A stretch of 16,440 nt of DNA from Phycisphaerae bacterium (GTDB lineage: Bacteria > Planctomycetota > Phycisphaerae > Sedimentisphaerales > Anaerobacaceae), in assembly GCA_030630315.1 (NCBI GenBank), contig DAOVNI010000007.1, forward strand, positions 1 to 16,440, in the 5' to 3' direction. Of the stretch, positions 8,201 to 16,440 are shown piece by piece. Made by a program: the position numbers and the translations under genes. Position 1 is the first letter of the stretch. Each line of letters begins with the position of its first letter. The notes below the pieces were generated by a model. The model was not told the origin of the DNA, ran no database searches, and saw nothing but the letters and a program-made list of their open reading frames with translations.

Positions 8201-8233
8201 ATATTGTTCCTGGGGACAGCCAATAGTCAATCG

Positions 8234-8252
8234 TCAATGGTAAATAGAAAAT
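8234..8252 (-). repeat. 19-bp inverted repeat, right copy
   Basis: Inverted partner of 7794-7812 with one mismatch. Together they bracket the RHS fragment. Confidence 0.5.
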
Positions 8253-8272
8253 TATCAAGGTGTCGATTGGAA

Positions 8273-9313
8273 ATGACATCGCGGGAACGTGTTTTAGCGG
8301 CATTTGAACACGAGGAGCCCGACCGTGTGCCGTGCTGGTGCGGGGCATCGGTCGAATTCTGGGAAAAAGCCAGGCGCCGGCTGCAGCTCGATGACGAGGG
8401 ACTGCGTGTGCGGTTCGGCGACGACTTCCGGCGGGTCTTCGCTGAATATGCCGGGCCGGAGTTTCCGCTGTCCGAAGGTGCTACTTCTCGAACGGTATTC
8501 GGCGTGGAGCGCCAAGGCCTGGGCTACGGTCAGCCGATGAACCATCCGCTGGCAAGTGCCACCCTCCTGGAGGTGCACGATTATGCCTGGCCCGACCCGG
8601 AATGGATGGACGTCTCGAAAATAAGAGCAGAGACCCGGGTGTACAAAGGAGAATACGCCATCCTCGGCGGTGACTGGTCGCCGTTCTGGCACGACGCCAT
8701 CGACCTGCTCGGTATGGAAAACCTGTATATAAAAATGTATGCCGAGCCGGAACTCGTTGATGCGGTGATGCAGCACTTAGTTGATTTTTACGCTGATGTC
8801 AACCGGCGAATATTCGATGCCGGCGCCGATTCGATAGATATATTTTTTATCGGCAACGATTTAGGAAGTCAGACAGGGCCTCTGCTGGGTCCGGCCCTTT
8901 TTGCGCGATTTATCCTGCCGCACTTGAAAAGACTAATCGACCTCGGTCATTCTTATGGTTTGAAAGTTCAGCTTCACTGCTGCTGCGGCTTTGCCCCGCT
9001 GATTCCGCTGCTGATTGAGGCCGGTCTCGATGGTCTGCACGCCGTCCAGCCGAATTGCCGGGGAATAGACCCGCGGATACTCAAGGCCGAATTCGGCGAC
9101 AAAATCCTCTTTAACGGCGCCATCGACTCCCACCATGTACTCATCGACGGCACTGCTGAAATCGTTCGTGAAAAGACACGTGAGGTTCTCGATATTATGA
9201 TGCCCGGCGGCGGCTATGTGGCCGGCGCCAGCCACGACACAATTCTCGAAGAAACCCCCGTTAAAAACGTGCTCGCAATGTTCGACACCATTCGGGAATA
9301 CGGAAACTATTGA
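8273..9313 (+). CDS. URO-D superfamily protein (MtaA/CmuA-like), A
   Basis: 346 residues from the ATG at 8273; the frame is open further up to a TTG at 8204, but MTSRERVLAAFEHEEPDRVP aligns with the starts of the other family members. A URO-D type barrel is indicated by the N-terminal RxRVLxAxxHxxPDRVP block, AILGGDWSPFWHDA, DIFFIGNDLGSQTGPL, HSYGLKVQLHCCCGF and a GGGYVAGASHD end. H235-x-C237 matches the H-x-C zinc motif of the methylcobamide:thiol methyltransferase branch; the RQAGRY motif of true HemE is absent. Family known: methyl transfer between a corrinoid and a thiol, or decarboxylation; substrate here unknown. It is convergent with, and strongly similar to, the URO-D gene at 9707-10777. 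Confidence 0.85.
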   Translation: MTSRERVLAAFEHEEPDRVPCWCGASVEFWEKARRRLQLDDEGLRVRFGDDFRRVFAEYAGPEFPLSEGATSRTVFGVERQGLGYGQPMNHPLASATLLEVHDYAWPDPEWMDVSKIRAETRVYKGEYAILGGDWSPFWHDAIDLLGMENLYIKMYAEPELVDAVMQHLVDFYADVNRRIFDAGADSIDIFFIGNDLGSQTGPLLGPALFARFILPHLKRLIDLGHSYGLKVQLHCCCGFAPLIPLLIEAGLDGLHAVQPNCRGIDPRILKAEFGDKILFNGAIDSHHVLIDGTAEIVREKTREVLDIMMPGGGYVAGASHDTILEETPVKNVLAMFDTIREYGNY

Positions 9314-9339
9314 TGATTTTCTACTGACTATACCAGATA

Positions 9340-9663
9340 TCAATCGCAATGGAATAGCTCCTCCATATCAGCCCACCATTGGCCTTCGGTGCTGGTTTCG
9401 AGCGGCTGCTGGCAGGGCTTACAAACGTCCCACCACTTCTGAGTGGTCGGGTCAGCCGCCATCTTTGCCATATCCGCCTCAAAATCTTCACCTACGTATT
9501 CAAAATAACTGAAGAGGTAACCATCTTTGTGATAAATTGAGTAATTACGGATGTTGCACTTTTGAATCATATCCAGCACCTCTGGCCAGATATTACTGTG
9601 GTATGCTTTGTACTCCTCTATCTTATCTGGCTTGACCCGAATCACCTGACCATACCTTTGCAT
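9340..9663 (-). CDS. rhaM: L-rhamnose mutarotase
   Basis: 107 residues, the normal size for RhaM (PF05336). AAGGAGG stands 8 bases before the ATG on the minus strand. Y18 and H22 in the EEYKAYHSNIW block correspond to the catalytic Tyr and His of E. coli RhaM, and the Trp pairs W77-W78 and W96-W97 fit the sugar-binding pocket. It interconverts alpha and beta anomers of L-rhamnose and can act on similar 6-deoxy sugars such as L-fucose. Last gene of the minus-strand operon, 43 bp after a URO-D gene, which links that operon to deoxysugar metabolism. Confidence 0.93.
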   Translation of the reverse strand: MQRYGQVIRVKPDKIEEYKAYHSNIWPEVLDMIQKCNIRNYSIYHKDGYLFSYFEYVGEDFEADMAKMAADPTTQKWWDVCKPCQQPLETSTEGQWWADMEELFHCD

Positions 9664-9706
9664 AGTGATTGCCTCCTTTTTACTTTAATTTAAACGTCGG
9701 GACACA

Positions 9707-10777
9707 TCAATTGTACCCCCCAAACTCGCGAACAGTGTCAAACATAGCGATGACATTTTCAACGGACGTCTCCGGGAGAAGGTAATCATGGCTAGCTGAG
9801 GCGATATAACCACCACCAGGTTTCATGATTTTGAGAATCTTGTGTGTCTCAGCCCTCACCAAATCAGGTGTGCCTTCGATGAGCTTCTGTGTATCAATGC
9901 AACCAATCAGCACAATCTTATCGCCAAAGTCGGTCTTGAGCCTGGCTGGTTCCATGCCGCGACAGAATGGTTGCAGTGCCTGCAGCCCATCCAGCCCGAC
10001 CTCGATCATCGCGGGTATAAGGGGAGCGAAACCACCACAGCAGTGCAGCACAACTTTCAAACCGTAGTCGTGGCCCAGGTCAATCAGGCGCTTGAGGTGC
10101 GGCAGAATAAACCGCCTGAACAATTCCTCCCCCAACAATGGCCCGTTCCGAGCGCCGAAGTCGTTACCGATAAAAAAGATGTCTATTACGTCTCCGGCTG
10201 CGTCGAAAATACGTTGGCTCACACCGGCGTAGTAATCAACAAAGTGCTTCATGAGCGCATCAACAAACTCGGGATCGTCAAACATCTTGTAATAGAGATT
10301 TTCCATGGTCAGAAAGTCAATGGCGTCATGCCAGAATGGGGACCAATCGCCGCCGAGAATCGCATACTGCCCGTCGTACTGCAGTGCTTCGGTCCTGATG
10401 TGGGAGACATCCATCCACTCAGGATTCGGCCAGGGGTACTCGTGTACCTCCGCGAGCGTGGCGTTGACGAAGGGACGATTCAAAGGCACTCCGTAGCCAT
10501 AGCCGTGACGTTCCACACCAAAAGGAGTCCGATAGGTCGCACCTGGTTGCAGGTTAAAAAACGGGCCAGCGTGCTCCGGGCCAGCATATTTGGCAAAGAC
10601 GCGACGGAAATCATCCCCCAGGTGGACAGACAGGCTTTCGTCATCGTCTAGTCCCAAGTGGTGTCTTGCCAGCTCCCGAAATTCGGACGAAGCACCGAGC
10701 CAAGCTGGCACACGGTCACCTTCAACATGCTCGAACGCGGCCAAAACCCGCTCTTTAGAATTCATCTGTCTGGACAT
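9707..10777 (-). CDS. URO-D superfamily protein (MtaA/CmuA-like), B
   Basis: 356 residues. I chose the ATG at 10775-10777 because GGAGAGGAG lies just before it; the frame extends further up into the preceding gene. The protein is collinear and clearly similar to the one at 8273-9313: NSKERVLAAFEH, FGDDFRRVF-type segment, AILGGDWSPFWHDAIDF, FFIGNDFG and LHCCGGFAPLIP. H245-x-C247 keeps the putative zinc motif, and the C-terminus has KPGGGYIASASHD. The function is probably the same reaction as its paralog. It starts 13 bp after the stop of the upstream URO-D gene and is followed by rhaM 43 bp later, so it is almost certainly in one transcript with both. Confidence 0.87.
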   Translation of the reverse strand: MSRQMNSKERVLAAFEHVEGDRVPAWLGASSEFRELARHHLGLDDDESLSVHLGDDFRRVFAKYAGPEHAGPFFNLQPGATYRTPFGVERHGYGYGVPLNRPFVNATLAEVHEYPWPNPEWMDVSHIRTEALQYDGQYAILGGDWSPFWHDAIDFLTMENLYYKMFDDPEFVDALMKHFVDYYAGVSQRIFDAAGDVIDIFFIGNDFGARNGPLLGEELFRRFILPHLKRLIDLGHDYGLKVVLHCCGGFAPLIPAMIEVGLDGLQALQPFCRGMEPARLKTDFGDKIVLIGCIDTQKLIEGTPDLVRAETHKILKIMKPGGGYIASASHDYLLPETSVENVIAMFDTVREFGGYN

Positions 10778-10790
10778 ACTCCTCTCCTTA

Positions 10791-11873
10791 TCATTCACGC
10801 CCCAAAGACCCATAGCGACCATACTTGTGTACGGCCTGGGTCATTGTCACAAAGTTCTCCGGCGGAATGCCATCCATGATACTGGTAGAAGAACTAAGCA
10901 CATAGCCTCCCCCAGGTGCCATCTTGATACAGTATTCTTTCACTTTCTCCTCAATCTCGTCCCCGCTACCATACGCCAAGAGCACCGTGGGAATATTGCC
11001 TATCAGCGCCAACTTGCCTACCCATTGCCTCTTGAGTTCAAAAATATCATTGGATTCAGGTTCATTTGGGTGAACTATGTTAATTCCTATGCCATATAGA
11101 ATTGGCAGAACCTTTTCCATCTTCCCATCGGTGTGCATAAGTACCAGTTTGCCATGTTCTTTAGCGGGAGCAATCAGTCGCTTCATGCGATGGGGAAAGA
11201 TTTCATTAAACATAGTAGGATTGATCATGAGTCCGTCATTGTGCGCGATGTCGTCGTTGACCATAACAAAAGCCAGATCGTCAGCAAAACGGTCGCACAC
11301 CGCGCACATCACCTTTTCCTGCCGCTCCAAGAGTATATCCATCAGTTTTTCGATAAAAGGCCGGTCGTCGTAGAACATATATAAAGAATCGGTAACGCCT
11401 ATCGCCAACATGGCACTGTCGAAGAAAGAGGTGAAATTGGCAACGATACCCACGCCGGTCCCCCGCGCGGTGCGTAGATAGCGTTCTATGTACCTGAGTT
11501 GATCGTCCAGCGACGGCGGAGGCTCCAGATTATCCAGGTCGGCCCACGTCTTCACCGAACCCCCAACATAGTGCTCCGTGCCATCGGAGGCGGACTCAAA
11601 GAGGTTGTTGGGTCGCCAGTTAAAGTTGCAGAGCACCGCGTCCTGACCCAGCCGTTGGGAAAATTCCACGTCATCCTCTGGTGTGATAGACTGCCCACCT
11701 TCGCTGGCATCCAAGATTTCATAATCGAGTTCGCGCTCCAGGACATACTCATACACCGCTCTGCTAGTAACCCACAACTCCATATGCGGTAACCTATCGG
11801 CCTCTTGATGATGCAGCACCTTAAGCAAGCGGTTGACATCAGATTTGTTGTAGTCTGAACTATCTCCTTCCAT
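10791..11873 (-). CDS. URO-D superfamily protein with altered zinc motif, C
   Basis: 360 residues; AGGGGGA precedes the ATG on the minus strand. Family features: LLKVLHHQEADRLPHMELW at the N-terminus, FTSFFD in the middle, DDIAHNDGLMINP, and APGGGYVLSSSTSI near the end. The motif that is H-x-C in the paralogs reads H247-T-D249 here, so the Cys ligand is replaced by Asp; this protein may bind zinc differently, decarboxylate, or act on another substrate. It lies between two other URO-D genes. Its start overlaps the end of a truncated rhaM-like frame by 14 bases, which may be a result of the deletion that removed most of that gene. Confidence 0.83.
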   Translation of the reverse strand: MEGDSSDYNKSDVNRLLKVLHHQEADRLPHMELWVTSRAVYEYVLERELDYEILDASEGGQSITPEDDVEFSQRLGQDAVLCNFNWRPNNLFESASDGTEHYVGGSVKTWADLDNLEPPPSLDDQLRYIERYLRTARGTGVGIVANFTSFFDSAMLAIGVTDSLYMFYDDRPFIEKLMDILLERQEKVMCAVCDRFADDLAFVMVNDDIAHNDGLMINPTMFNEIFPHRMKRLIAPAKEHGKLVLMHTDGKMEKVLPILYGIGINIVHPNEPESNDIFELKRQWVGKLALIGNIPTVLLAYGSGDEIEEKVKEYCIKMAPGGGYVLSSSTSIMDGIPPENFVTMTQAVHKYGRYGSLGRE

Positions 11874-11976
11874 AACGATTCCCCCTATTAAACATAGCGA
11901 TTGGAAAAGGGATCATGTCCACATTACACACAAGCTTTTCAGGTCTTACTTCAATTACTGAACCATATCGTTTCAT
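11860..11976 (-). pseudogene. Truncated L-rhamnose mutarotase remnant
   Basis: A 38-codon frame on the minus strand, preceded by TTGGAGGAATATT as a good ribosome-binding site. It starts MKRYGSVIEVRPEKL, which closely matches the start of the intact RhaM in this window (MQRYGQVIRVKPDKI) and of RhaM proteins generally. After about 15 residues the similarity ends (VCNVDMIPF...), well before the catalytic Tyr and His. It follows a URO-D gene by 24 bp, the same order as URO-D then rhaM at 9707-9340. Could still be translated and couple translation into the next gene. Confidence 0.75.
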
Positions 11977-12000
11977 AATATTCCTCCAAACGAATTGCTG

Positions 12001-13203
12001 TTAAATTTGCTCATCAAATTCGCCCAGTTCGAGGGGATATTGCCCATGTTCTCTCACTAACCGGACAATATAATCGTATGTGTGTCCCGAGATAGCGGAA
12101 GTAACTGAATGGTCTGAGGCAAATATATATCCGCCGCCTTTAGCCGCGTTTAGTTTGCGCAGTACCTCCCTGCGAATCAGCTCTTTGTTACCGGTCTCCC
12201 ATATTTGAATATTGCTGTTTCCAAAAAAGGCAATCTTATGCCCAAACTTCTTTCTTAACTCGATGACGTCCATATCCGCCTTGGCTTCGAGTGGATTGCA
12301 GGCGTCGATGCCTATTTCGATGAAATCCTTAAAAATCTCGTTGACATTTCCGCACCCGTGGTAAATTACATCCAAATCGTTCCGGTGACAGTGGTCAGCG
12401 ATGGCTTTTACCCAGGGCTTGAAATATTCCCTCCAATAGTCGGGCGAAAAGAACATACCTTTCTTGTACGCAACATCTCCCCAGATGACGAAGCCATCGA
12501 GCAGGCCATTGGCTGCTTGAATCTCGGCTTTCGCGCAGTCCAAATAAAATTGTCCGATTCGATTAATCACCTTTCCGATACGCTGCGGATACATTCCCAT
12601 CCAGAGGAGGGTATTCTCCTGGCCAATCAGGCGGGTCAGGCATTCAGAGCATTCTGTAATGCTGCCATAAACGGGAAAGTCCGGGCGTAATTTTTTCACG
12701 GTCTCAATCCAGGGAGGAGAATTGCGTTCAAAGCCGTCTCCAACGCCGGCGATTTGGTTGTCGCCGGCTTCAAAATAACGCCTTTTGTCATAAGGGTCGT
12801 CAAATTCAAACGACTCCAGTTTTTCGATGCTGTCCGTGTCCCAACCGACCTGTTCGGGCATAGGAAAATCAAACTTCTTGCGGATTACCGTTTCGTAACC
12901 TGTTTTTATAACCACTTCCCGGTCGTCTTCCTTTAATGTTTCAAATGACTTGATATGTGGGTCCATATTGGTAACCGTAACAATCAAATCAAGGTCGTAG
13001 TAGTAATAAGGATTAGCGTCGTCCGGCAAGCCGCAGCGACTCGCGTCGCTAGACGCGGCTGCAGGCAAGGCGAGCTCTTTTTTCCATCGCTCAATAAAAC
13101 TACCCCAGAAAAAATCGCTTATTGGGACGCGGTCTGCTTCCCTGTGCGTCAGGGTCTTGCTTATCCTTTCGAGTTTTTTCAGACAGTTAGGAGTTCGTTC
13201 CAT
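12001..13203 (-). CDS. URO-D superfamily protein with in-frame palindromic insertion, D
   Basis: 400 residues, longer than its neighbours. Recognisable by LERISKTLTHREADRVPISD at the N-terminus, PVYGSITECSECLTRL, a WGDVAYKKGMFFSP segment, VIYHGCGNVNE and KGGGYIFASDHSVTS. H282-x-C284 fits the H-x-C zinc motif; the middle segment GDVAYKKG is typical of the family's substrate loop. Residues 48-60 (AAASSDASRCGLP) are encoded by a small palindromic insertion; without it the sequence reads smoothly ELALPDDANPYYYYD. First gene of the minus-strand operon; the ribosome-binding site is weak. No promoter that I would trust is visible in the repeat-rich DNA upstream. Probable methyltransferase-type enzyme, substrate unknown. 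Confidence 0.85.
   Translation of the reverse strand: MERTPNCLKKLERISKTLTHREADRVPISDFFWGSFIERWKKELALPAAASSDASRCGLPDDANPYYYYDLDLIVTVTNMDPHIKSFETLKEDDREVVIKTGYETVIRKKFDFPMPEQVGWDTDSIEKLESFEFDDPYDKRRYFEAGDNQIAGVGDGFERNSPPWIETVKKLRPDFPVYGSITECSECLTRLIGQENTLLWMGMYPQRIGKVINRIGQFYLDCAKAEIQAANGLLDGFVIWGDVAYKKGMFFSPDYWREYFKPWVKAIADHCHRNDLDVIYHGCGNVNEIFKDFIEIGIDACNPLEAKADMDVIELRKKFGHKIAFFGNSNIQIWETGNKELIRREVLRKLNAAKGGGYIFASDHSVTSAISGHTYDYIVRLVREHGQYPLELGEFDEQI
13031..13063. mobile_element. 33-bp palindromic insertion with 6-bp target duplication
   Basis: GGCAAG occurs directly before (13025-13030) and directly after (13064-13069) a 33-bp segment. The segment folds as a nested hairpin: outer arms CCGC (13031-13034) and GCGG (13055-13058), inner arms AGCGAC (13035-13040) and GTCGCT (13045-13050) around a TCGC loop. 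Insert plus one repeat is 39 bp, which adds 13 residues to the URO-D protein without breaking it. Confidence 0.75.
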
Positions 13204-13305
13204 AAACTGACATTTCCCTATTTAAACGGTTACAGAATATAATTTTTTCCTTAGATATCCTACAGCAAAAAGGTGGAGAGCAGCATTTTTTTTGCCTTTG
13301 AAATT

Positions 13306-13413
13306 GGCTTTGTTTGGCTTTGTATTGGGTTTGTTTTGGGTTTGTTTTGGGTTTGTATTGGCTTTGTATTGGCTTTGTATTGGCTTTGATTGGCTTTGTA
13401 TTGGGTTTGTTTT
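13306..13413. repeat. 11-bp tandem array (GGCTTTGTATT units)
   Basis: Ten units in a row, eight of 11 bp and two of 10 bp. There are two alternating types, GGCTTTGTATT and GGGTTTGTTTT. Degenerate units lie on the left (13294-13305) and one isolated unit at 13493. Confidence 0.9.
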
Positions 13414-13685
13414 CACCAAGTGTCCAATCGCTTATATTTTCATAATCCTTTGTTATACTTGAGTTTACGTTCATTTGAGTATCCAGCAAATTGGCTTTGT
13501 TTTGCATAAAAGGGCTGATTTGTAAAGAATCCTCTACAGTTGTAGAGGGCCAATTAGTCGTTAGTCGATAGTATTTAGTATATAGCCGGTTGAGGCCGGG
13601 ACGGCCGGCATTATTTATTGACCACAGATTACAGATTGAAATTTTCATAACTTTGCCTATCTTGCCAAATGCTGGTTTTTGACGT

Positions 13686-13742
13686 GTATCTGCTGATACG
13701 AGGACGTGCGGTTCTCCGCTAAATACCTGCCATCTCTATGGC
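13686..13742. ncRNA. Three consecutive small hairpins, candidate structured RNA or repeat end
   Basis: GTATC-TGCT-GATAC (13686-13699), GCGG-TTCT-CCGC (13708-13719) and GCCAT-CTCT-ATGGC (13729-13742). All have four-base loops and they are spaced 8 and 9 bases apart. I do not recognise an RNA family. Strand not determined; on the minus strand it would lie about 480 bp upstream of the URO-D operon. Confidence 0.35.
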
Positions 13743-13893
13743 GATTTGTATTTTAACAGAAATTCAAAGAAAAGTCAAGAAAAAAGGGCAAAAAAATTAG
13801 CCACAGAGAAGGTAGAGACAGTTTTGAATTTTTAGTTCTTAGTTTTGAGTTGCGGAGTCCGCCGTTGGCGGATGGCTGATTTTATTTTTGTTT

Positions 13894-13935
13894 AACTTGT
13901 ATCGGTAATGGAAACTCTGGAGAGAATCCGAAGCG
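13894..13935 (+). repeat. 42-bp direct repeat, left copy (flanks PIN module)
   Basis: Starts AACTTGTATCGG and ends AATCCGAAGCG; identical to 14831-14872 except for one base. The PIN toxin-antitoxin pair lies between the two copies. Confidence 0.9.
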
Positions 13936-13973
13936 AAAACACAACAACAATTTGAAATAATGTCGGATTTTGT

Positions 13974-14001
13974 TTGACAGTATCTATTGCTGTATTATAT
14001 A
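13974..14001 (+). promoter_or_regulatory. Near-consensus sigma70-type promoter of the PIN module
   Basis: TTGACA at 13974-13979, a 16-bp spacer and TATATA at 13996-14001. The expected transcription start is within a few bases of the ATG at 14010, so the mRNA would be leaderless or nearly so; no Shine-Dalgarno sequence is present there. Confidence 0.65.
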
Positions 14002-14009
14002 CTTATGGT

Positions 14010-14489
14010 ATGACTTCTATTTCAAAGTCCAAATTGACCCGGGTTTATGCTGATACATCCGTTTTTGGAGGAATGTTTGATGAGGAGTTTGAAACAGCCA
14101 GTAAAGTGCTTTTTGAGGGTATAAAAAAAGGATCATTCAAGCTGATTACCTCTGAACTGGTGCGTGAAGAGATACAAGTTGGACCCCAAAAAGTCCTCGA
14201 TATTTTTGAAGAATTTCTTGTCATTGCAGAAATTGCCGAGATTACCGATAGCGTCCTGCAATTACAACAATCGTACGTTCAGGCAGGCATAGTTTCGGAA
14301 AAATACGCTACAGATGCTATGCACGTAGCGTTGGCAACCGTTTCAAATGCCGACCTGATAGTAAGCTGGAATTTCAAACATATAGTGAATTTCCAGAAGA
14401 TACCGTTATATAACGCCGTTAATACCTTAAAGAGGTTTGAAAAAATCGCGATATATTCGCCATTAGAGGTGATAGAATATGAAGACTAA
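14010..14489 (+). CDS. PIN-domain ribonuclease, probable toxin
   Basis: 159 residues from the ATG at 14010; a longer frame from the TTG at 13974 would start inside the promoter. The N-terminal VYADTSVFGG strand carries D15, and E49 (SELVREE), D102 (ATDAMHVA) and D115 (ADLIVSWNFKH) complete the usual acidic set of a PIN domain, followed by the W-N that often closes the motif. PIN proteins are Mg-dependent RNases; in small two-gene modules they are type II toxins. The next gene overlaps by 11 bases and encodes a short charged protein, as expected for a toxin-antitoxin pair. Expression from a strong, adjacent promoter. The module lies between two 42-bp direct repeats. Confidence 0.85.
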   Translation: MTSISKSKLTRVYADTSVFGGMFDEEFETASKVLFEGIKKGSFKLITSELVREEIQVGPQKVLDIFEEFLVIAEIAEITDSVLQLQQSYVQAGIVSEKYATDAMHVALATVSNADLIVSWNFKHIVNFQKIPLYNAVNTLKRFEKIAIYSPLEVIEYED

Positions 14490-14640
14490 AATTTTTGATT
14501 GTGTTGAAATGAAACGGCGGGGAGCAGAATTAGTACAAAAACAAATTGAAGGAAAGTCACTTGCTCAAAAATTAGAATACTGGCAAAAGGGAACTGACGA
14601 ACTGAAAAAACTTCAAAAGCGAAAAAAGGGCAAAAATTGA
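14479..14640 (+). CDS. Small antitoxin-like protein paired with the PIN toxin
   Basis: 53 residues, starting MKTKIFDCVEMKRRGAELV and ending in a Lys-rich helix. ATG at 14479, inside the last codons of the PIN gene, with AGAGG at 14465-14469 as ribosome-binding site. The C-V-E-M-K-R-R-G-A-E pattern followed by an amphipathic helix (LAQKLEYWQKGTDELKKL) recurs in short proteins next to PIN genes in several phyla, from memory. No DNA-binding fold is evident, so it probably works by binding the toxin; autoregulation not shown. Confidence 0.75.
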   Translation: MKTKIFDCVEMKRRGAELVQKQIEGKSLAQKLEYWQKGTDELKKLQKRKKGKN

Positions 14641-14793
14641 TTGCAGACCTTGACCGCCCTCGTCTTCATAAATTCAAGTTTTTCAGCAATTTCACACATT
14701 ATCCCGACCCAATTGGCACAGGTTTCAAGTGATTAATTCTCTCAAGGATCTCATGGAACAGGGATTTCGATACGAGAAGGACTGTTTAAGTAA

Positions 14794-14816
14794 ACCCGCC
14801 TTACTGTGTGGCGGGT
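14794..14816 (-). terminator. Hairpin, possible terminator for minus-strand transcription
   Basis: Arms ACCCGCC (14794-14800) and GGCGGGT (14810-14816) with a 9-base loop; read on the minus strand it is followed by TTTACTT. A weak U tract, so it may equally be a dispersed repeat. Confidence 0.35.
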
Positions 14817-14830
14817 AAAAAAGAGGAAAC

Positions 14831-14872
14831 AACTTGTATCGGTAATGGAAATTCTGGAGAGAATCCGAAGCG
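14831..14872 (+). repeat. 42-bp direct repeat, right copy
   Basis: Partner of 13894-13935, one mismatch. Directly followed by an orphan PEP-CTERM tail on the minus strand, so the repeat may be the 3' flank of a former PEP-CTERM gene. Confidence 0.9.
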
Positions 14873-14874
14873 AT

Positions 14875-14985
14875 TCAACGTGAAAAGAGTGACGAGCAAT
14901 TTCTTCTCAACATCACCGCACCGAGGCCGAGCAGTATGAGCGTAGCCGGTTCGGGGACAGATTCTATTTTCGTTTGAACAAGTCG
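14875..14985 (-). pseudogene. Orphan PEP-CTERM sorting tail 1
   Basis: On the minus strand the frame reads VPEPATLILLGLGAVM followed by LRRN and a stop at 14875-14877: the Pro-Glu-Pro motif, hydrophobic segment and basic end of the exosortase sorting signal. The frame begins after a TAA at 14986-14988 and has no start codon. It overlaps the 3' end of the HEPN-like gene in another frame. PEP-CTERM tails normally end secreted proteins of several hundred residues; the body is missing. Confidence 0.75.
14911..14958. repeat. 48-bp direct repeat, left copy (PEP-CTERM coding DNA)
   Basis: 42 of 48 bases match 15465-15512. The two copies bracket the HEPN-like gene. Confidence 0.85.
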
Positions 14986-15431
14986 TTATTCTCAGGTGCT
15001 TCGACAACTATTTTGGCCAGATTGAAAATTATGCCATCAGTGAAAGTTATTTTTTTATTGTTGAGAATAGTTATTCTCATCCCATCCCCACTCTCAAATG
15101 CAATGTATTCCGGCAGCTTAGCCTCGTGGACGAGCTCATTGCGGACACAACGGTAAAGTACCTCAGGGAGTAACAACTTCTCATCTTGAAACGTAATAGG
15201 GAGGGGATTATCCTCAGACCAGCCTGGGCCGCGTTTAGACATCTCTTCGGATACAAAAAGTCTGAAAACGTATTTATCGCTGTTCTCTTTAGCTTTTATT
15301 CCCTTACGCTCTCTTGGGTATCGCTTACGAGACGTTGCGGCGACAGCTATAAGTGTTGATAACAAAGCGCCTTCTTTCCGTCCGTTTTTGTAGAGGATTT
15401 GTGCGTCCTCAATTCGATTCTTAATGCTCAT
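14964..15431 (-). CDS. HEPN-like hypothetical protein
   Basis: 155 residues from the ATG at 15429-15431, preceded by GAGAGG; an upstream TTG at 15446 is less likely. The N-terminus (IEDAQILYKNGRKEGALLSTLIAVAATSRKRYP, helical) resembles helix pairs of HEPN domains. R97-N-E-L-V-H102 fits the R-x4-6-H catalytic motif of HEPN ribonucleases, followed by a HEAKLPEY segment. Family known: RNases in toxin-antitoxin, abortive infection and CRISPR ancillary systems, though many small members are uncharacterised. AT-rich compared with the PEP-CTERM DNA on both sides, and placed between two direct repeats, so it probably arrived as an insertion. No antitoxin-like partner found. Function uncertain. Confidence 0.7.
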   Translation of the reverse strand: MSIKNRIEDAQILYKNGRKEGALLSTLIAVAATSRKRYPRERKGIKAKENSDKYVFRLFVSEEMSKRGPGWSEDNPLPITFQDEKLLLPEVLYRCVRNELVHEAKLPEYIAFESGDGMRITILNNKKITFTDGIIFNLAKIVVEAPENNDLFKRK

Positions 15432-15449
15432 TTTTTCACCTCTCAAGAG

Positions 15450-15539
15450 TCAGCGTTTTCTCACCATCACCGCACCAAAGCCGAGAAGTAAAAGCGTGGC
15501 CGGTTCGGGGACGGAGACGACACGAAAGCCTATAATATG
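15450..15539 (-). pseudogene. Orphan PEP-CTERM sorting tail 2
   Basis: A 29-codon frame on the minus strand reading VPEPATLLLLGFGAVMVRKR and a TGA at 15450-15452. A TAG directly precedes the frame, so no protein body is attached. Classic exosortase signal: PEP motif, hydrophobic helix, basic end. It ends 18 bases before the start of the HEPN-like gene. Confidence 0.8.
15465..15512. repeat. 48-bp direct repeat, right copy (PEP-CTERM coding DNA)
   Basis: Partner of 14911-14958 at an offset of 554 bp. Confidence 0.85.
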
Positions 15540-15590
15540 CTATAACTGGCGCTTCATTTATGGTAGATAACGCTTCATCTGTGGCAAATC

Positions 15591-16440
15591 TTAATAGAGA
15601 CACTGCTTTGCCGCTTCGGCAAAAGTTATGAGGTTCTCAACGGGGGTCTCAAAGAAGTGGTCAGATGCGGAGAGGATGTATCCGCCGTCTTTTCCGAACC
15701 CTTCAAAGAGCCGCTGGACTTCAGCTTCTATCTGCTCCTTCGTCCCAGAAGTTAGTACGTTGAACTGGTCCATCCCGCCTATCATTGCTACTTTTTGTGA
15801 ATAAACCTCCCGTACCTTTTTCGGCTCTGTAATGTTTCCGCCTACACTTGCTACACTTGCAGGCGCGAGCGTTTCCGAAGCGTCAGTTTCGTTTTCTATA
15901 ATCAACTCCAGAATATTCATCATTCCGCCGCAGGTATGGTATGTTGAGATGAAATTATGTTTGTGCAATGCGCGATGTATTTCACGGGCATAAGGCAGAC
16001 AATACTCGCGATGGAGGTCGGGGGAAATGAGGGTATCGCTGCCGGCTCCGCCTCCCGTTTCAATCAAATCAAATTTTGCGCCGGCCAAAGATTCCTCGAT
16101 AAAACGCAGCTTCTTGTCCAACAAAATCCGCATCAGGCGGTGCACCCAGTCGGGATTGTCAATTGTCTCTAATATGAGGGCCTGTACATCCATTAAGCAG
16201 CAGGCGTGCTGCCAGCAGCCGGCCTGGTCGCCCCAGACAAATCCCCGCAGAATACCTGCATCTCCAACGGCATCGTACTCGGCTGCGATTTTTTTCTTAT
16301 CCAGCTCAGCCACAGGCATATATTTTTCTATCAGGTCGATGTCCCCGTGCTTTTTGATAATGTATTCGGTTATCCACGTGGTTGTAAGGTTTCCGCCGGT
16401 TTTGTATGTGAGCTGTCCTTCGGGTGTTGTAATCGTATGG
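15591..16440 (-). CDS. URO-D superfamily protein, E (5' end outside window)
   Basis: Minus-strand frame open to the right edge, so the start is not in the window; about 282 residues are visible. At the edge it reads TPEGQLTYKTGGNLTTTWITE, then HGDIDLIEKYMPV, ILRGFVWGDQAGCWQHACC, LIETGGGAGSDTLISPDLHREY, FISTYHTCGGMMN and DGGYILSASDHFFETP, all typical of planctomycete URO-D-like proteins. The H-x-C zinc motif is present (HTC). An in-frame 9-bp tandem duplication (15842-15859) gives ASVASV where I expect a shorter loop. Function probably methyl transfer or a related lyase reaction; substrate unknown. Separated from the operon at 13203-9340 by the PIN and HEPN insertions. Confidence 0.87.
   Translation of the reverse strand, partial: HTITTPEGQLTYKTGGNLTTTWITEYIIKKHGDIDLIEKYMPVAELDKKKIAAEYDAVGDAGILRGFVWGDQAGCWQHACCLMDVQALILETIDNPDWVHRLMRILLDKKLRFIEESLAGAKFDLIETGGGAGSDTLISPDLHREYCLPYAREIHRALHKHNFISTYHTCGGMMNILELIIENETDASETLAPASVASVGGNITEPKKVREVYSQKVAMIGGMDQFNVLTSGTKEQIEAEVQRLFEGFGKDGGYILSASDHFFETPVENLITFAEAAKQCLY

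Follow-up and report, generated by a model that had tools for sequence, protein, structure and literature searches.

The stretch of DNA analyzed here (the window, 16,440 nucleotides) carries within a gene of the URO-D family a 39-bp sequence, termed P1, which is probably a mobile insert, namely a non-autonomous palindrome of fixed length. The insertion itself is well supported. The argument for mobility is built on the dispersal of P1, on empty sites, on one and the same length in three cases, on a target preference, on in-frame copies, on nesting and on covariation. This confidence refers to a mobile insert of such a kind; the readings discussed below that involve a REP-associated transposase or template switching concern the mover and overlap with it.

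The window copy is delimited by two GGCAAG repeats which enclose 33 bp with nested inverted repeats, as described in the initial annotation of this DNA, and the reading frame on the minus strand, which matches URO-D, stays open (Table 1). A 21-bp core was found once in the window with up to three mismatches and in none of 200 shuffles. Folding of this single copy is moderately unusual (z −2.4, equalled by 4 of 200 shuffles), and structure alone is therefore not decisive. The window gave no Rfam match at gathering level, and a search of the PDB with the URO-D protein found no relative at 0.001. In the protein model (37 sequences; mean pLDDT 87, five models spanning 70 to 87) the only run of at least three residues with a pLDDT below 50, residues 53–56, falls within the insert (46–58), so that the 13 residues probably form a flexible loop; the block 151–160 is about as low in pLDDT as the insert.

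Table 1. Features of the P1 copy and its host gene (window positions)
Feature	Position	Strand	Remark
Host gene, URO-D family protein, 400 aa	12001..13203	-	Insert corresponds to alignment residues 46–58
GGCAAG copy	13025..13030	.	Reads CTTGCC on the minus strand, where it lies at the 3' end of P1; part element end, part target
P1 element	13027..13065	-	39 bp missing from orthologues; boundaries from the second empty site of the family, as alignment alone cannot fix the position within the 6-bp repeat
Conserved 19-bp core GCGTCTNNNGACGCGAGTC	13038..13056	-	
Second GGCAAG copy	13064..13069	.	At the 5' end of P1 as read on the minus strand

Further repeats were noted around this gene. Upstream of it, at 13303–13410, approximately ten units of the 11-bp sequence ATTGGCTTTGT form a tandem array that reads on the minus strand as a K/Q/T-rich open reading frame, and about 160 bp (approximately 13389–13551) recur at about 80% identity in loci L091 and L092 of G001 and G002 as well as in L123. 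Five URO-D family genes lie within 8 kb on both strands (8204–16319); genes of this family can belong to corrinoid methyltransferase systems.

P1 is a dispersed sequence. The genome to which the window belongs (1.81 Mb, 69% complete) contains six exact copies of GCGTCNNNNGACGCGAGTC and two further copies with two mismatches, which rest on their flanks, the reversed control of the two-mismatch search having likewise given six matches. A 30-bp stretch of the window element has a second copy elsewhere in the genome with two mismatches. Among 89 genomes of the family, CGCGTCTNNNGACGCGAGTC (at most one mismatch) gave 40 matches in 18 genomes compared to 4 for the reversed pattern; the copy number is low, with 11 matches at most in any one genome. 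An exact-pattern scan of 84,980 named species genomes returned 20 stretches, 16 of them from metagenome-assembled genomes (MAGs) titled Phycisphaerae, Sedimentisphaerales or other Planctomycetota. Of the remainder, two are contigs from a single MAG with the title Elusimicrobia, and two are armless stretches that look like chance. Judging by their titles, all named carriers whose copies have intact arms are MAGs, and assembly or binning errors are possible in single copies. The flanks of a P1 copy in the same-genus genome G002 are those found on a contig titled Phycisphaerae bacterium CSMAG_1316. For the analyses below 45 distinct copies with at most two core mismatches were used, excluding the armless L036 and L049.

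Empty sites exist at nucleotide level. Exactly 39 bp are missing from the URO-D orthologues of both same-genus genomes compared, which are 91% identical if the gap is counted and 94% identical outside of it. The initial annotation had proposed that 39 bp, or 13 residues, were added to a protein that stays open, that the closest homologue would show the empty site, and that a tiny family of dispersed palindromes is involved; all of this is borne out. At protein level the 13 residues are missing in all four orthologues, and since this includes the distant ones at 75% and 48% identity the insert is taken to be derived. A protein search (E 1e-30) yielded 5309 homologues, and 119 of the best 120 are without the insert; the one carrying the identical 13 residues, P0001, is a 95% identical relative. 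This single shared occurrence could be cited in favor of a protein segment that is ancestral or functional, or of an assembly error, in place of a mobile insert. Such a reading is barely conceivable against the 119 homologues and the four orthologues lacking the segment, and against the fact that the same DNA is found in several genomes and reading frames and in genes that are unrelated. Orthologues with the same residues in unrelated codons, or the lack of any other copy in the genome, had been named beforehand as evidence against an insertion; the sole sharer is the close relative mentioned, and other copies exist.

A second copy of the same genome lies in an aminotransferase gene. All four aligned orthologues are empty at this site, where P1 amounts to exactly 39 bp with no duplicated base and corresponds to a 13-residue gap relative to PDB entry 1j32. 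The FAH insert likewise gives a 13-residue gap in a PDB alignment. Other PDB comparisons gave no clean insert length: MurG and sulfatase were unclear, the DapF insert lies beyond the aligned part, the alignment of the FAD oxidoreductase is split at the insert, and the gap in prolyl oligopeptidase is smaller than the 22 codons of its composite insert. At nucleotide level P1 is a clean 39 bp in three of three cases (URO-D, aminotransferase and a copy inside the palindrome P2, see below), and this length check covers these three insertions only.

The boundaries at the aminotransferase site fit the window, in which CCTGCAGCC, the core and GCTGCGGCTTG are then placed between GCCTTG and CCGGA. The 6-bp repeat of the window is accounted for by four bases of the element end and two of the element start that match the target, so that the apparent CTTGCC duplication amounts to element ends meeting a similar target. 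Over the 45 copies the ambiguous overlap between end and target ranges from 0 to 6 bp (0 in 9 copies, 2, the commonest value, in 15, and 6 in 3). A 6-bp target duplication as the signature of insertion, as initially suggested, could therefore not be upheld. The corresponding picture, a 33-bp element of the MITE type with a 6-bp duplication, is in line with the window, where CTTGCC stands on either side, and with the single copy in the empty site. It is nevertheless very unlikely: the duplication should be constant, but it is missing at the aminotransferase site and the overlap varies as given above, and three further copies of the subtype seen in the window have the end CTCG and dissimilar left flanks. 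A 2-bp CC duplication is possible in part of the P1 copies.

A spanning open reading frame of at least 120 residues was present around 31 of the 45 copies. Scanning 30 of these 31 frames assigned a Pfam family above cut-off to the frames of 22 of the 45 copies. The hosts are URO-D, LamG, prolyl oligopeptidase, FAD oxidoreductase, aminotransferase, LpxD, SecG, two PQQ proteins, a MurG-like protein, FAH, MotB, sulfatase, DapF, an Mfd-like protein, L31, ATP-cone, an NqrA/RnfC-like protein, transaldolase, a glutamine-amidotransferase-like protein, aldo-keto reductase and a chorismate-binding enzyme. Six copies lie inside the best matched stretch (oligopeptidase, oxidoreductase, aminotransferase, FAH, sulfatase, chorismate-binding), and in the MurG-like protein P1 is found between two matched domains. 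The other genic copies are located outside the matched stretch, several of them near the predicted start or end of the frame. Together with the empty orthologues for two genes, these hosts confirm that P1 enters genes in frame. As 39 bp equal 13 codons and the sequence is GC-rich and stop-poor, insertions would survive in tolerant parts of proteins. The idea of a special stop-free design was dropped; in 32 of 45 copies none of the six frames is closed, compared to a fraction of 0.53 of shuffled sequences, and frame openness is mostly a matter of composition.

At four loci from four genera (L016, L064, L065 and L085, near position 1500) P1 follows a short Leu-rich reading frame. In these leuA-type loci it sits in the hairpin TTGCGCCG^CAAGGCGC, and the gene that follows was recognized by eye as LeuA in L064 and L085. 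Here P1 may be part of a leucine leader or attenuator. Rfam returned for the four loci two matches only, far below gathering scores.

The flanks of 33 insertions lean towards TTTG^CCGG. The counts are G−1 22 of 33, G+4 19, C+2 18, T−4 16, G+3 16 and C+1 15; T−3 (13) and T−2 (11) are weak, and the columns were picked after the counts were seen. Twelve of the 45 rows were dropped for this count, i.e. six P2-nested copies, four leuA-type copies and both L043 copies, the latter by locus name, although the one in the FAH gene is sound and independent as an insertion; the apparently hairpin-nested rows L033 and L073 were kept, and two more were lost later due to short flanks. Leave-one-out scoring placed the true site at a mean percentile of 0.78 within its locus (n=31, KS p 7e-8). 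Copies inside P2 and in the leuA leader sit at G^CAA of a hairpin loop. Targeting of hairpin loops as a general rule was considered and rejected, since the joined empty sites of the 33 other insertions do not clearly exceed re-paired flanks in hairpin-likeness (6.21 versus 5.69, sd 0.36; a value equalled by 47 of 500 re-paired flank sets).

Some P1 copies are enclosed by an outer hairpin, among them the one in the prolyl oligopeptidase gene, which exceeds its two empty orthologues by 66 bp. The outer repeat was therefore predicted to exist alone, and TTCTTGCTTTCGCAAGAAAGC (at most three mismatches) indeed gave 114 matches in 18 of 41 genomes compared to 4 for reversed controls. We refer to this outer repeat, the commoner palindrome of the two, as P2. 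At the one orthologous locus available for comparison P2 stands alone in G002 and together with a 39-bp P1 in G001, with matching flanks. P2 is bordered by C and G runs, and its arms show more complementarity than re-paired arms (6.06 compared to 5.26 of 8, reached by 0 of 500). It was found in frame in ileS (L141, L170), an insertion common to the genome of the window and G002, and in fmt (L159); PDB gaps are 15 for IleS and 7 for Fmt, with no clean length. The fmt insertion has a net gain of 21 bp over four empty orthologues with replacement of target bases, and its left arm was already present in the target. Because of this replacement P2 may enter differently from P1. Reading by eye, we further noted P2 in frame in housekeeping genes at L155 and L148, and embedded in longer repeats, as a third tier of nesting, at L127, L158, L117, L118, L147, L151, L160 and L167. 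These longer repeats resemble TCATTGCGAG..GCAATCTC, TCATCCTGAG..CGAAGGATC and TGCCTGCAC..GTGCAGGCA. Among the viral_contigs the exact P1 pattern had no match; the exact P2 pattern had one, in an IMG/VR contig (L210 8844–8869). Literature searches, with most subscription papers outside their coverage, found no account of P1 or P2, the sequence strings had no hit in papers, and the passages of PMC12306157 available to us contain no account of either.

For the fold analysis 38 distinct 39-mers were used. Covariation of the outer and inner stems scores 0.189 compared to 0.099, and an alternative hairpin, which is mutually exclusive with the nested stems, covaries as well (0.304 compared to 0.151); in both cases none of 500 shuffles reached the score, with the reservation that shuffles overstate significance where copies are related. 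Weaker measures gave 33 of 500 shuffles for pairs changed on both sides and 24 of 500 for further pair types in the nested stems, and 45 and 19 of 500, respectively, in the alternative hairpin. If the partners are slid, most of the covariation signal is gone. Free fold prediction yields the inner stem and three outer pairs only. Having two alternative folds may be important for movement, or it may be a result of palindrome correction, and the covariation could arise from such correction by template switching.

In an explanation without a dedicated enzyme, polymerase template switching or strand annealing at hairpins would spread P1, and the covariation would be a trace of palindrome correction. 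Covariation among three strands, the P2 arms complementary beyond re-pairing, and the fmt insertion with its replaced target bases and pre-existing left arm are arguments for it; the clean 39 bp in all three nucleotide-level cases and the target motif of P1 argue against it. We regard this explanation as doubtful, albeit worth keeping in mind.

P1 inserts cleanly at TTTG^CCGG-like sites with no constant target duplication, and in the mechanism favored by us it would move as a folded single strand of DNA or RNA with an enzyme supplied in trans. A single-strand transposase of the HUH type would leave an insertion without duplication beside a short target word. Such a route fits the junctions observed and names a candidate mover only; template switching or another recombinase are possible alternatives. 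IS200/IS605 and TnpA-REP systems insert without duplication. For TnpA-REP a hairpin substrate and the choice of a short cleavage word are described in the accessible part of PMC8266576; hairpin and short word are a likeness to P1, while no enzyme is tied to P1.

A more specific alternative takes P1 for an ordinary REP whose mover is a REP-associated tyrosine (Y1) transposase. Size, palindrome and lack of duplication agree with it, and Y1_Tnp genes occur in 33 of 41 genomes, with five matches in the genome of the window. REPs are grouped by GTAG or CGTC tags, and some are intragenic, according to the excerpt of PMC3733652 at hand; P1, at 39 bp with covarying stems, resembles these dispersed palindromes of 20–40 bp. 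The tags, however, differ. An unpaired terminal GTAG is not conserved in P1: inside the element the word occurs in 2 of 38 aligned copies in sense and in 3 of 38 in antisense orientation, and in 2 of 45 copies it lies outside, no more than 10 bp from an end. CGTC is present in 34 of 38 copies but lies in the inner stem (99.5% of cells pair) and not in an unpaired end tag. P1 also differs by its low copy number, with approximately half of the copies in recognized genes. In the 30 Y1_Tnp loci examined no link to a Y1 transposase was seen, P1 (at most three mismatches) and P2 (at most four) being absent from all of them; these loci are a minority of the listed matches and include one of the five in the genome of the window. 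We therefore consider an ordinary REP unlikely.

The initial annotation had pointed to a likeness with the in-frame palindromic elements of Rickettsia, in an unrelated group, and the in-frame copies in unrelated planctomycete genes agree with this. Rickettsia palindromic elements (RPE) of 105–146 bp lie in frame in genes (PMC2229807) and are found in Rickettsia proteins (PMC2635572), as far as the portions of these papers available to us tell. They share with P1 the palindromic repeat in frame in unrelated, conserved genes and differ in size from the 39 bp of the planctomycete element. RPE-4 and RPE-6 of R. conorii are listed as CGTC repeats in the part of PMC3733652 consulted, whereas P1 has no such end tag. 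Very short GC-rich or palindromic mobile repeats are also known from organelles. From partial views of the sources, yeast mitochondrial GC clusters are flanked by AG or ACT repeats (PMC4478555), and Volvox organelle palindromes are inserted into one another (PMC2670323). The nesting of the latter is a further likeness to P1; the organellar location of both, and the AG or ACT flanks of the yeast clusters, are differences.

Palindromes inserted in frame were known before, in Rickettsia and among the REPs of certain species. P1 is a further case, independent of these and very small, in which empty sites are clear, the length has so far been constant, and a target motif and nesting are seen; the origin of new protein segments and the movement of tiny elements thereby become testable. 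A far-reaching extension, improbable at this stage, would be a tiered system of ultra-short hairpins with two folding states in these bacteria (P1 within P2 within REP-like repeats). Its members would copy themselves in the form of folded single strands by machinery new for such elements, would choose short words and the loops of further hairpins as targets, and would thread new peptide segments into housekeeping proteins. For annotation the consequence is a warning that 13-residue inserts in proteins of Phycisphaerae may be mobile DNA.
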